Part shown: positions 3,868-7,205 of the stretch, piece after piece
Layout: every line of letters begins with the position of its first letter
Position numbering within the stretch: position 1 is the stretch's first letter
From: Candidatus Methanoperedens sp.
GTDB taxonomy: Archaea > Halobacteriota > Methanosarcinia > Methanosarcinales > Methanoperedenaceae
Direction: 5' to 3'
DNA length: 64,000 nt
NCBI GenBank assembly: GCA_026552955.1
Contig: JAPMTS010000012.1
Location: forward strand, 1 to 64,000
Position numbers and translations under genes: made by a program
Notes under the pieces: generated by a model
Database searches by the model: none
What the model was told of the DNA's origin: nothing
Seen by the model: only the letters and a program-made list of their open reading frames with translations

Positions 3868-4803
3868 TTAGCCGAATTTCTTTCGGGCTGCGAACCTCAC
3901 GCCAATATTTAAAATAAGGATCATGACAATCAATATGAGAGCTCCCGCCCATGCTTTGGCATGCCAGTCAGGAAATGGTGTTATTGCGTACGTATATATC
4001 TGTACAGGGAGGGTTGATATTGGTTTATCTATCCCTCCTGCCCAGAACATATTGCCAAACGATGTAAACAAAAGAGGCGCGGTCTCACCTGATATCCTTG
4101 CGATCGCTAATAGTGCCCCTGTGATTATGGCGCTTTTTCCTGTACCAAGAACAATGTATAATGTTGTCTTCCACCCCGGTATTCCAAGCGCCAGGGATGC
4201 CTCTTTGATAGAAGATGGCACAAGTTTGAGTGATTCTTCAGTAGTCCGGGTAACAATGGGTATCATTAACACCGACAATGCCACACCTCCGGCGATTGCT
4301 GAGAAGCTTTTGAAATAAAGAACAATTAAGGTATAACCAACCATACCTGCCACTATCGATGGAGTACCGGTCAGGACATCAGCCATGAAACTTACAAAAC
4401 GTCCGAACCTGTTTTCTCCGTATTCTGAAAGATAGACACCAGCAAGAATTCCTATAGGAAGCCCGATCAAGCAGGCTATTCCCACGACGATGAAGGTCCC
4501 TTCTATTGCATTCCCCAGTCCTCCGCCCGGTTCTCCGACTGGTCTGGGAAGCTGTGTAATAAAATCCATATCTATAGCAGGTAATCCGTTGCTGATCACT
4601 GTATAGAGGATGCTCAAAAGCGGGATTATAGCGATAGTTACGCAGGCAGCAGCCAGGAAGGACATGATCCTGTCGATCAATTTTCTTTTATAGCGTCTGG
4701 GGTCAATGGGTAGAGAAAATCCCCGACTTATAGCCGGGGGATGAATCGTACCCCTTGCGTTTTGCACATCATCCTCAAAAACCAAATTGTAGTCCTTTTC
4801 CAT
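3868..4803 (-). CDS. pstA: Phosphate ABC transporter permease PstA with IS-derived N-terminus
   Basis: A 311-residue permease of the MetI-like fold with the EAA-type loop KEASLALGIPGWKTT near residue 200. From about residue 31 (LPIDPRRYKRK) it is ordinary PstA. The first 30 or so codons are read through the right end of the inserted IscB element: the start ATG at 4803 lies inside the iscB tail, and residues translated as GTIHPPAISRGFS are the element's terminal hairpin sequence. An older start probably lay at the pstC stop (ATGA at 6249-6246), about 1.5 kb upstream. Whether the new start gives a working protein is not visible from sequence, but the permease core is intact. Confidence 0.9.
   Translation of the reverse strand: MEKDYNLVFEDDVQNARGTIHPPAISRGFSLPIDPRRYKRKLIDRIMSFLAAACVTIAIIPLLSILYTVISNGLPAIDMDFITQLPRPVGEPGGGLGNAIEGTFIVVGIACLIGLPIGILAGVYLSEYGENRFGRFVSFMADVLTGTPSIVAGMVGYTLIVLYFKSFSAIAGGVALSVLMIPIVTRTTEESLKLVPSSIKEASLALGIPGWKTTLYIVLGTGKSAIITGALLAIARISGETAPLLFTSFGNMFWAGGIDKPISTLPVQIYTYAITPFPDWHAKAWAGALILIVMILILNIGVRFAARKKFG
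4721..4739 (-). other. Right-end hairpin of the IscB element
   Basis: On the minus strand an 8-bp stem CCCCGGCT / AGTCGGGG with a 3-nt loop is preceded by GATTCATC and followed by TTTTCTC. A closely similar end (GATTCATC, C-rich/G-rich stem, then ATTCTC) occurs on the minus strand near 52527-52565, just upstream of the TnpB gene. Both copies have GCAA-GGG-like sequence before GATTCATC, so they derive from related element ends. Here the hairpin is translated as part of pstA. Confidence 0.65.
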
Positions 4804-6163
4804 ACGTGATCAACTCTACATTTTTAATATTTGAATTAATATCCTTTCCGTTCTCATTCTGTAATCGTATCCAAGCGCCATAATTGAACACGCCCTTAAC
4901 AGTATATGCTTGTCCCTTACATCTTACAAGATCATTTGGCTGAAACTTGTATCTCTCTCTTCGGATAGAGGGGTTGAATCCTTTTCTATTTGTTTGAAGA
5001 GAACGATTATTTCTTCTGGTTTGCTTAACCACATGAGGTCGGCATCTTTCCTGGTCTGATCCTTTTGATATTGCAAAAGCATCGTTCACATGCGATTTCT
5101 CTAATACCAATTCTATCCTGAGCTTCTTGGTGATGTAGCCAAAGGTGTAATTGATTGATACTTTTTCATACAATTCTTTTAATCTCCTGACCAATTCCCA
5201 TCTAACCGTATTCATGAACGCTGCGGCTTTTAGCGGTTTCTTACAATGTTCTTCGATCTCAGGATGACCGAATTCTTTTGCTGTCTTATTCCCTTTCTTC
5301 TGATTGCATTTATGGCAGGCGATAGTCAAGTTGGAAACACGGTCGCTTCCACTTCTTGAGGAAGGAATAACATGTTCTATTTCAAGTGGGATATCTGTCT
5401 TTTCACAATAAGCACACTTGCGTTGAAACTTCTCAAGCAGATATTCTCTTATTTCGTAGCCCTGTAATTCGCCTTGCCGATACTCTATTCCTGAGATTTC
5501 AGGATTTTGTATTTTCTGTGCATCGAAACTAGCTACTTCAATCTCTATTTCGGTAACAGGAAGCAGTTTTTTGATTTTCTTGACTAATTCCAGATGAGTT
5601 TTGATCTTATGTTCTATGGAAGGAGCAAACCATCCTTTCGGGATATTCCTATTCAGGAATCTTGGCTCTCGATATTGAGTATTCCTGCTTCTTCTACCTC
5701 GCCGATACATCTGTTTTTCTTTGAGCTTATTAGGGATATCGGTTCTTAAATGTACTGCGCCTGATATTAGCTCTGCTGTTCTGGTTCTTGCAGAGTAACC
5801 TATTGTTTTGAATGCGGTGTCTATTCCTAAGATTATTTCTTGTTTCGTTTCTCCCGTAGCATATTTTAACTGGATTGTAAATGGAAGTCGCTTAACTACC
5901 TTAGCTTTTCCCATTTTCAACAAATGTTTTGCCTTTGCTGGTTTAGTTGGCATCAAAGGCTGACCTCTCATGTTTAACACATATACAGGAACTCTCAAGT
6001 CCTGTTTCCTGTGTTCAGATTGGTTCACTTCGGAGCGGTTATCTAAAGTTTTTGAATCGGATACACTAAGAATTTCTTCTCTGTTTAATATCCGATCACA
6101 GTTGCAACCGACTTGTGAAGCATCGGTAGGTGTGTATGTATTTCTTTTAGATAACTTTTTCAT
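4775..6163 (-). CDS. iscB: IscB RNA-guided nuclease (RuvC-HNH, Cas9 ancestor family)
   Basis: About 462 residues from ATG 6163. In order: PLMP motif (residues 69-72), RuvC-I LGIDTAFKTIG (Asp115), an arginine-rich bridge helix (RRGRRSRNTQYREPRF), RuvC-II EIEIEVASFD (Glu207/209), an HNH domain with CxxC pairs (Cys250/253 and Cys283/286) and EHVIP (His264), and RuvC-III KSHVNDAFAI (His358, Asp361). All catalytic positions are present, so it should be active. IscB cuts DNA guided by an omega RNA encoded just upstream. ATG 6163 has a strong ribosome site (AGGAG), but IscB homology begins only near VPVYVLNM, so TTG 5998 or ATG 5971 could be the real start. Confidence 0.92.
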   Translation of the reverse strand: MKKLSKRNTYTPTDASQVGCNCDRILNREEILSVSDSKTLDNRSEVNQSEHRKQDLRVPVYVLNMRGQPLMPTKPAKAKHLLKMGKAKVVKRLPFTIQLKYATGETKQEIILGIDTAFKTIGYSARTRTAELISGAVHLRTDIPNKLKEKQMYRRGRRSRNTQYREPRFLNRNIPKGWFAPSIEHKIKTHLELVKKIKKLLPVTEIEIEVASFDAQKIQNPEISGIEYRQGELQGYEIREYLLEKFQRKCAYCEKTDIPLEIEHVIPSSRSGSDRVSNLTIACHKCNQKKGNKTAKEFGHPEIEEHCKKPLKAAAFMNTVRWELVRRLKELYEKVSINYTFGYITKKLRIELVLEKSHVNDAFAISKGSDQERCRPHVVKQTRRNNRSLQTNRKGFNPSIRRERYKFQPNDLVRCKGQAYTVKGVFNYGAWIRLQNENGKDINSNIKNVELITYGKGLQFGF

Positions 6164-6243
6164 TTTTTGACTCCTAATCAATCAGTTACCCATATCCCTC
6201 ACGGGACACGCCTCCGACTTCTATTCGGGGGTGATTGACTCCA
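5999..6243 (-). ncRNA. Candidate omega RNA of the IscB element
   Basis: IscB omega RNAs are transcribed from immediately upstream of iscB, with the guide at the 5' end copied from host DNA flanking the left end. Only about 80 nt separate pstC from ATG 6163, too short for a usual omega RNA. The next 165 nt encode a non-conserved N-terminal stretch and contain several inverted repeats: 6056-6063 with 6089-6096 (ATCGGATA/TATCCGAT), 6107-6111 with 6123-6127 (ACCGA/TCGGT), and 6195-6198 with 6203-6206. I infer that the RNA occupies this region and overlaps the open frame. No covariance model was run. Confidence 0.5.
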
Positions 6244-6245
6244 TT

Positions 6246-7205
6246 TCATGCCCTTCCCCCTCCTTCCACCCTGAGCAGCTTCCAAACCAGCACCCTGGCC
6301 GCAATATTGATTATTATTGATACAACCAGGAGTAAAAGCCCGACCTCAATAAGGGAAGAGACATAGAGCCCTGATGTAGCTTCCACGAACTCATTTGCGA
6401 TAACAGAAGCCATAGTATATGATGGTGCAAAAAGCGACTCGGATATCCTGGGACTGTTCCCGATGACCATGGTCACTGCCATGGTTTCGCCTATTGCCCT
6501 CCCGAACCCGAGAATTACCGCCCCGAATATACCCGATCTGGCATAGGGTAAAACAGCTATCCTTGTAGTCTCCCAGCCTGTCGCCCCAAGAGCGAGGGCA
6601 GCTTCTCGCTGCTGTACCGGCACTGTCATTATGACTTCTCTGGATACCGATGAAGTTATTGGGATTATCATGATCGCAAGTATCACGCCGCCTGTGAGCA
6701 TGGATAGGCCGTACATGGGACCCTGGAACAGGGGCAGAAAACCAAGATACGTAGAAAGCGGCGGCGCAAGATAATCGCGGGTGAATGGAGCAAGAATGAA
6801 TATGCCCCACAATCCTATTATTACACTGGGGATCGCCGCCAGCAATTCTATGATAAAAGAAAGAGGTGTTCTTAATTTAGGGGGGGCCAACTCTGAAAGA
6901 TATATAGCTATCCCGATGCTGAATGGGACGGCTATGACCAGTGCAAGGAACGATGAAACAATAGTCCCGAAGATAAAAGGAAGAGCCCCGAATATCTCAT
7001 TTACGGGGTCCCAGGTCGTTGTTGCCAGGAAATTTAAGCCAAAAGTATTCCTTGAAAGTTCGGATCCGATAAAAAGCTCCCTGAATAAAAAAAATGCAAG
7101 GATCAATATGCCAAGAGCAAATAATCCGACTACTGCCTCAAAAATAAAATCACCGGAGAACTTACTCCGGCTGAAACGGAAAAAAGACATTTTTGGTCGA
7201 TCCAT
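6246..7205 (-). CDS. pstC: Phosphate ABC transporter permease PstC
   Basis: A 319-residue permease with six or more hydrophobic helices and the EAA loop REAALALGATGWETTRIAVL near residue 210, followed by GRAIGETMAV. It forms the membrane channel with PstA. The start codon abuts the pstS stop without a gap. Its TGA stop overlaps an ATG (ATGA, 6249-6246), the trace of direct coupling to an original pstA start before the IscB element inserted. Confidence 0.95.
   Translation of the reverse strand: MDRPKMSFFRFSRSKFSGDFIFEAVVGLFALGILILAFFLFRELFIGSELSRNTFGLNFLATTTWDPVNEIFGALPFIFGTIVSSFLALVIAVPFSIGIAIYLSELAPPKLRTPLSFIIELLAAIPSVIIGLWGIFILAPFTRDYLAPPLSTYLGFLPLFQGPMYGLSMLTGGVILAIMIIPITSSVSREVIMTVPVQQREAALALGATGWETTRIAVLPYARSGIFGAVILGFGRAIGETMAVTMVIGNSPRISESLFAPSYTMASVIANEFVEATSGLYVSSLIEVGLLLLVVSIIINIAARVLVWKLLRVEGGGRA

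Follow-up and report, generated by a model that had tools for sequence, protein, structure and literature searches.

Probable translation of IscB from a start codon within its own omegaRNA in Candidatus Methanoperedens

We analysed a stretch of 64,000 nucleotides from Candidatus Methanoperedens sp. (assembly GCA_026552955.1, contig JAPMTS010000012.1, positions 1 to 64,000), hereafter the window. Between pstC and pstA, on the minus strand, it carries iscB, the nuclease gene of an OMEGA system, and the scaffold of the corresponding guide RNA, the omegaRNA. The reading frame of iscB runs through most of this scaffold. Judging from sequence comparison, translation of IscB probably begins at an ATG that lies within its omegaRNA. 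Messenger and guide would then be mutually exclusive fates of the transcript, and expression may be self-limiting. Translation through the omegaRNA, taken by itself, is very probable.

Overlap of the omegaRNA with the iscB reading frame

The features on which the argument is built are the following:

6018..6239, minus strand: omegaRNA / HEARO scaffold (RF02033, 112.8 bits, full length)
6171..6175, minus strand: Shine-Dalgarno (SD) sequence AGGAG (SD scan; cmscan structure line)
6174-6170, minus strand: GGAGU, 5' strand of the omegaRNA nexus stem (cmscan structure line)
6032..6036, minus strand: GCUCC, 3' strand of the nexus stem, pairing with the SD sequence (cmscan structure line)
6161..6163, minus strand: ATG, the likeliest start codon of IscB; within the omegaRNA, where stem-loop 2 would lie (SD sequence and open frame in relatives)
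5993..6163, minus strand: 57 codons in the iscB frame, the part 6163-6018 belonging to the omegaRNA (frame open in 37 loci; codon periodicity absent; RNA pairs covarying)
5996..5998, minus strand: TTG by the IscB core, perhaps a secondary start or the ancestral one (SD match AGGA at 6010-6007, weak)
4775..6163, minus strand: iscB coding sequence as a fused open reading frame (ORF), 462 aa, RRXRR (PLMP/RuvC) and HNH (Pfam)

The covariance-model search that the original prediction had proposed gave a strong match to HEARO (RF02033) at 6239-6018 on the minus strand (cmscan, E 1.1e-23). The match was above the gathering score of 83 and spanned the model from position 1 to 211 of 211. No second Rfam family passed the threshold in the window. 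Stems already recognized by the original prediction from the letters alone (6056-6096, 6107-6127 and 6195-6206) were identified as HEARO helices. The omegaRNA lay directly upstream of an intact iscB, on the same strand.

As predicted, the iscB frame (stop at 4775) extended far above the conserved start. Above the conserved core VPVYVLN, whose first codon is at 5992, it stayed open for 63 codons, as far as TTG 6181. The open frame covered ~74% of the omegaRNA, and from the ATG onward 146 of its 222 bases were in the iscB frame. The predicted ribosome site before ATG 6163 was found at a spacing of 7 nt from the start codon, and the short gap to pstC was recovered as well, the pstC stop at 6246 lying 83 nt above the ATG. 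Two alternatives had been offered for this region, an unusual N-terminal extension or DNA shared by the omegaRNA and the coding frame. Both hold together: the DNA is shared, and the product would have an N-terminal extension of ~57 residues.

Domains recognized in the product were PF14239 (E 1e-62), HNH_5 (E 2e-13) and HNH (E 5e-11). Residues D115, E209, H264, H358 and D361 were invariant in alignment A1; we take them to be the RuvC and HNH catalytic residues. The usual IscB layout, with the omegaRNA in an untranslated 5' region and the start codon 3' of the scaffold, was not found here. It is the gene layout that departs from the usual; the protein and RNA families are the known ones.

The frame is kept open, the peptide is not conserved

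Relatives were gathered by HEARO searches within the order, and by using the extended IscB as query in a single scan each of a genome and a viral collection. The fused set, defined by the open frame, comprised 37 non-redundant loci with HEARO and IscB; two decayed copies (L014 and L029) were left out. Stops were counted in the last 146 nt of the omegaRNA plus the spacer. Only one in-frame stop was present in the IscB frame, versus 160 and 150 in frames +1 and +2. Because the loci had been chosen by their openness, the frame was tested by column permutation to escape circularity, with letters shuffled within alignment columns and the column composition kept (500 permutations). In 33 aligned loci, no frame-0 stops were observed versus 32 ± 4 expected, with a minimum over all permutations of at least 16. 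Sixteen divergent representatives gave the same picture (0 observed versus 16 ± 2.8 expected), and frames +1 and +2 were at the permutation expectation.

The frame was open also across insertions and deletions. Non-triplet indels separated 289 of 320 fused pairs. Indels of one or two bases were common among the fused loci and compensated, at times within eight bases. For example, in alignment A2 eight sequences had a gap in column 68 and six in column 76, and none had both.

No corresponding constraint was recognized on the peptide. Between close pairs, the differences per codon position were 0.152/0.140/0.144 in the extension versus 0.091/0.071/0.305 in the core. The ratio of nonsynonymous to synonymous differences (pN/pS) of the extension was equal in all three frames (0.67-0.87), versus 0.23-0.29 for the core. 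Compensatory changes were found in 18 of the 26 predicted RNA pairs inside the coding segment. Of 31 fused loci, 28 had the RNA motif TTAAA in phase 0; in ordinary loci its distribution over the phases was 5/5/3. Together, the kept frame, the lack of periodicity and the RNA covariation indicate that the segment evolves as an RNA needing one stop-free frame. The alignments thus show selection for an open frame without selection on the peptide.

These data bear on whether selection has acted on the amino-acid sequence of the extension, making it a new functional domain of the protein. By eye the peptide (MQKL..RNTYTPTD..) does look conserved across many phyla, but this visible conservation tracks the RNA motifs, and pairs of ±1 indels rewrite whole stretches of the peptide. 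As third positions show no excess of changes and pN/pS does not differ among the frames, this explanation is highly improbable, and a reading of the extension as a protein domain was rejected for its lack of codon periodicity. The original prediction had named the opposite outcome, no covariance match together with protein-level conservation of residues 1-60, as the one that would speak against it. The reverse was found on both counts, a strong match and an extension without protein-level selection.

Start signals and the nexus stem

Start signals were scanned with an SD match of at least four bases in the 37 fused loci, in 18 ordinary loci and in seven coupled loci, where an ORF through the omegaRNA ends on the IscB start. 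Of the fused loci, 35 of 37 had an SD sequence plus start inside the omegaRNA, with the frame open to the omegaRNA end; so did all seven coupled loci, but only 1 of 18 ordinary loci. By the IscB core, such a pair was found in 17 of the ordinary, all seven coupled and 13 of the fused loci, being mostly weak in the last. No ATG, GTG or TTG was present near the core in about one third of the fused loci, and in several of them TTG was replaced by ACG, TCG or CCG. The TTG by the core was a strong candidate start, and stood at the coupled start, in Borrarchaeota; it was lost in about a third of the fused loci.

A start of IscB at TTG 5998, with the upstream open frame a by-product of the omegaRNA sequence, would agree with the SD-like AGGA at a spacing of 8 and with an extension that evolves as RNA and not as protein. 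It would leave unexplained the absence of frame-0 stops where about 32 are expected, with frames +1 and +2 at expectation, and the compensated indels. The change of TTG to ACG, TCG or CCG in many fused loci, and the SD sequence and start codon in the omegaRNA of nearly all of them, also argue against it. We consider a start at TTG 5998 quite improbable.

The coupled loci belonged to UBA203 (L050, L095, L110) and Borrarchaeota/Sifarchaeota (L077, L078, L080, L083). In these seven sister loci an ORF of 59-62 codons ran through the omegaRNA in another frame and ended on the IscB start, with an ATGTTAG or TTGA overlap. On the viral contigs L216-L218, from a distant IscB group, and L214, an ORF with SD sequence and ATG passed through the HEARO region and ended 13-20 nt past the IscB start. 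HEARO was confirmed by cmscan in L214, L216 and L217, and these contigs look like an independent coupled case. ORFs through the omegaRNA in other frames indicate that translation through it is maintained whether or not the ORF is in frame with IscB.

The stop overlapping the IscB start in the UBA203 and Borrarchaeota/Sifarchaeota loci, and the ORFs on the viral contigs, would also fit translation through the omegaRNA mainly for coupling. Ribosomes on the leader would then unfold the RNA and reach a start at the IscB core, in-frame fusion being one way among others. Fused loci, however, have no stop that ends a leader, about one third of them have no start codon near the core, and a proximal start with SD match is present in only 13 of 37. 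Coupling as the main purpose is therefore unlikely, though the least so of the alternatives weighed here, and initiation at the ATG inside the omegaRNA is preferred.

In the Rfam structure line, the central multiloop is closed by a stem whose 5' strand, in most members, was the SD sequence. A nexus stem is known from the solved omegaRNAs of IsrB and IscB, where it is contacted by IscB (PMC9581776, PMC9640706), and we equated the multiloop-closing stem with it. A pseudoknot reading of the bracketed Rfam pairs was dropped, as they are the pairs of the nested nexus stem. The nexus pair covaried, with the 5' side staying purine-rich and SD-like (GGAG/CUCC, GGGG/CCCC, GAGG/CCUC, GGGA/UCCC). The ATG occupied the place of stem-loop 2 of ordinary HEARO, and the stem-loop 2 pairs were often broken in the fused lineage. 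With the SD sequence being a nexus strand, folding or IscB binding should hide it.

Spread of the arrangement

The original prediction had considered the overlap uncommon for IscB. As a one-off it did not stand: the arrangement was typical of a large, phylum-crossing IscB group, and nearly absent from the ordinary loci examined. The same layout was found in Methanoperedens, Ethanoperedens/GoM-Arc1 and related archaea, Woesearchaeota, Diapherotrites, Borrarchaeota, Hodarchaeota and Thermoplasmatota, in some bacteria (Actinomycetota, Clostridia, Ignavibacteria and Chlamydiae metagenome-assembled genomes) and on viral contigs. Ordinary IscBs without it were those of Sutterella, Duodenibacillus, Methanobrevibacter, Bacillota and most viral contigs. 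HEARO over the extension was confirmed by cmscan in the tested open-frame relatives, except in L098 (Candidatus Methanolliviera), which had an open extension of 95 codons and no HEARO at the gathering score. Its omegaRNA may be a diverged form.

On a tree of the IscB core (145 rows), the open-frame label required 9 changes, versus an average of 32-39 for shuffled group labels. Most open-frame cases fell in two separated IscB groups, indicating that the architecture was gained, lost or exchanged several times.

A second fused omegaRNA-iscB was present in the same genome (L002, G000:C13:48653-48954). The omegaRNAs of L002 and L015 were 302 nt long, with an extra segment of ~78 nt (26 codons) in which the frame was kept.

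Proposed mechanism

Sequence directly supports the omegaRNA, the overlap, the selected readability, the SD sequence in the nexus stem, and a proximal start that is lost or weak in most members. In the mechanism that we propose, ribosomes would initiate at ATG 6163 inside the omegaRNA, with the 5' strand of the nexus stem acting as ribosome-binding site. They would continue across the remainder of the scaffold and on into IscB, giving a product of 462 residues with an unselected tail of ~57 residues. As messenger, the transcript would have its nexus stem open and its scaffold unfolded by ribosomes; as guide RNA, it would be folded and IscB-bound, with the SD sequence hidden. A given transcript could thus not be messenger and guide at the same time. 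Binding of IscB to the fold in cis would stop further IscB synthesis and turn the transcript into guide RNA, making expression self-limiting.

We give this feedback switch slightly less than an even chance. A little more tentative still is the view of a widespread OMEGA lineage in which the scaffold would be a translational switch and the nexus a ribosome-binding site closed by IscB, each transcript serving as either messenger or guide and selection acting on readability and not on the peptide.

Several observations weigh against this mechanism or limit its reach. At the Methanoperedens locus, TTG 5998 with its weak SD match could also start IscB. The stop counts by frame and the SD/start counts partly restate the open-frame definition of the fused set; the permutation, SD and phase tests are independent of it. 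An AlphaFold prediction of the extended protein had a mean predicted local distance difference test (pLDDT) score of 47 with six sequences in its alignment, and was uninformative on the tail. In Borrarchaeota and Hodarchaeota the nexus stem was ordinary (GCCUA/UUGGC) and the SD sequence lay just 3' of it, signifying that the nexus switch is not universal. Standalone omegaRNAs with no downstream IscB in the sequence available (L004, L013, L017, L021, L023, L028) kept the SD sequence, the ATG and the open frame; in another, L018, the frame was not kept. The six copies may be recent deletion derivatives, and they offer no clean negative control for frame decay. In several standalone copies the frame ran well beyond the omegaRNA, and in L013 it ended 3 nt after it.

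The element and its insertion in the pst operon

The element and its expected guide and target-adjacent motif (TAM) were placed as follows:

4692..6239, minus strand: whole IscB element, 1548 bp (alignment with the empty pstC-pstA junctions of sister species L230, L231, L232 and others)
6240..6257, minus strand: expected guide segment GGAAGGGCATGAAATGGA, last pstC codons / pstA start, outside the element and directly 5' of the scaffold
4686..4691, minus strand: ATAAAA, expected TAM by the right element end (empty-site reconstruction)

The pstC-pstA junction was uninterrupted in sister species with PstC 83-96% identical. The element was inserted after the first 10 nt of pstA, without target duplication; the native site reads ATGAAATGGA / ATAAAAG, the slash marking the insertion point. 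Empty-site reconstruction gave the layout ...GGAAGGGCATGAAATGGA / element / ATAAAAGAAAATTG... IscB guides come from the left flank of the element, and the 18 nt of this flank were identical in the empty site (L230; empty allele of G019). The left flank at 6240-6257 is thus the putative guide. On the right flank, ATAAAA is a candidate TAM that fits the reported IscB TAMs ATAAAA and NTAAA (PMC13180657).

The element is an IS200/IS605-type OMEGA element. It did not carry its own TnpA (Y1), iscB being the sole gene in its 1548 bp, and Y1 genes or fragments were found elsewhere in the genome. Lacking its own TnpA, the element could at most be mobilized in trans. The omegaRNA and iscB were oriented as the pst operon, and the pst transcript would therefore contain both.

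The insertion lay in codon 4 of pstA, and the pstA frame was re-joined through the right end of the element (4692-4803, minus strand). PstA now had a hybrid N-terminus (MEKDYNLVFEDDVQNARGT...), with its start inside the iscB tail. From the native pstA start, the frame read 16 codons into the omegaRNA and then met a stop. A C-terminal TnpB remnant (Cas12f1-like TNB domain) was found at 22-369 of the window, on the plus strand.

Comparison with known systems

As in OMEGA IscB/HEARO systems, the locus had an RRXRR and HNH nuclease, a scaffold directly upstream, a putative guide from flanking DNA and a TAM-like ATAAAA on the opposite side. Published descriptions put the omegaRNA of OMEGA IscB in the 5' untranslated region (PMC9755519), whereas here the probable start and its SD sequence are inside the scaffold and the frame passes through it. 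In one curation protocol, N-terminal insertions were swapped for a downstream start where available (PMC13180657), so that the trait may have been screened out. No description of such an overlap was found in the literature searched, which did not include the papers that introduced HEARO and OMEGA (Nature 2009, Science 2021); a passing remark there is possible.

In the DtIsrB omegaRNA, the terminal hairpin SL7 holds the IsrB SD sequence, and the authors suggest that omegaRNA binding could regulate IsrB expression (PMC9581776). Both cases have a guide-RNA structure overlapping a ribosome-binding site. The DtIsrB SD sequence is at the RNA 3' end, immediately upstream of the coding sequence, whereas the one here belongs to the nexus stem, with most of the scaffold read as coding.

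The omegaRNA/reRNA of TnpB overlaps the 3' end of the tnpB ORF, real protein-coding sequence included. As with TnpB, guide RNA and coding sequence share DNA, and messenger and guide would compete for one transcript; TnpB is described as processing its own mRNA into omegaRNA/reRNA (PMC10278001). Unlike the 3' overlap of TnpB, the one here is 5', includes the start signal and involves a peptide not under selection. The proposed mechanism would also resemble the autogenous repression of ribosomal-protein operons, a protein on a structured RNA in its own mRNA hiding the start. In contrast to those operons, the binding site would here also be the guide scaffold of the enzyme.

Significance

If true, this would be a natural case of a structured guide RNA kept translatable without selection on the peptide, so that the constraints which RNA fold and reading frame place on one set of bases can be told apart. 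It would offer a testable answer to how nuclease and guide RNA are balanced in OMEGA systems, and to how a potentially toxic nuclease limits itself. In the fused group, automatic choice of the start codon could then mis-annotate IscB, and the usual separate cloning of omegaRNA and protein would remove a native layer of control.
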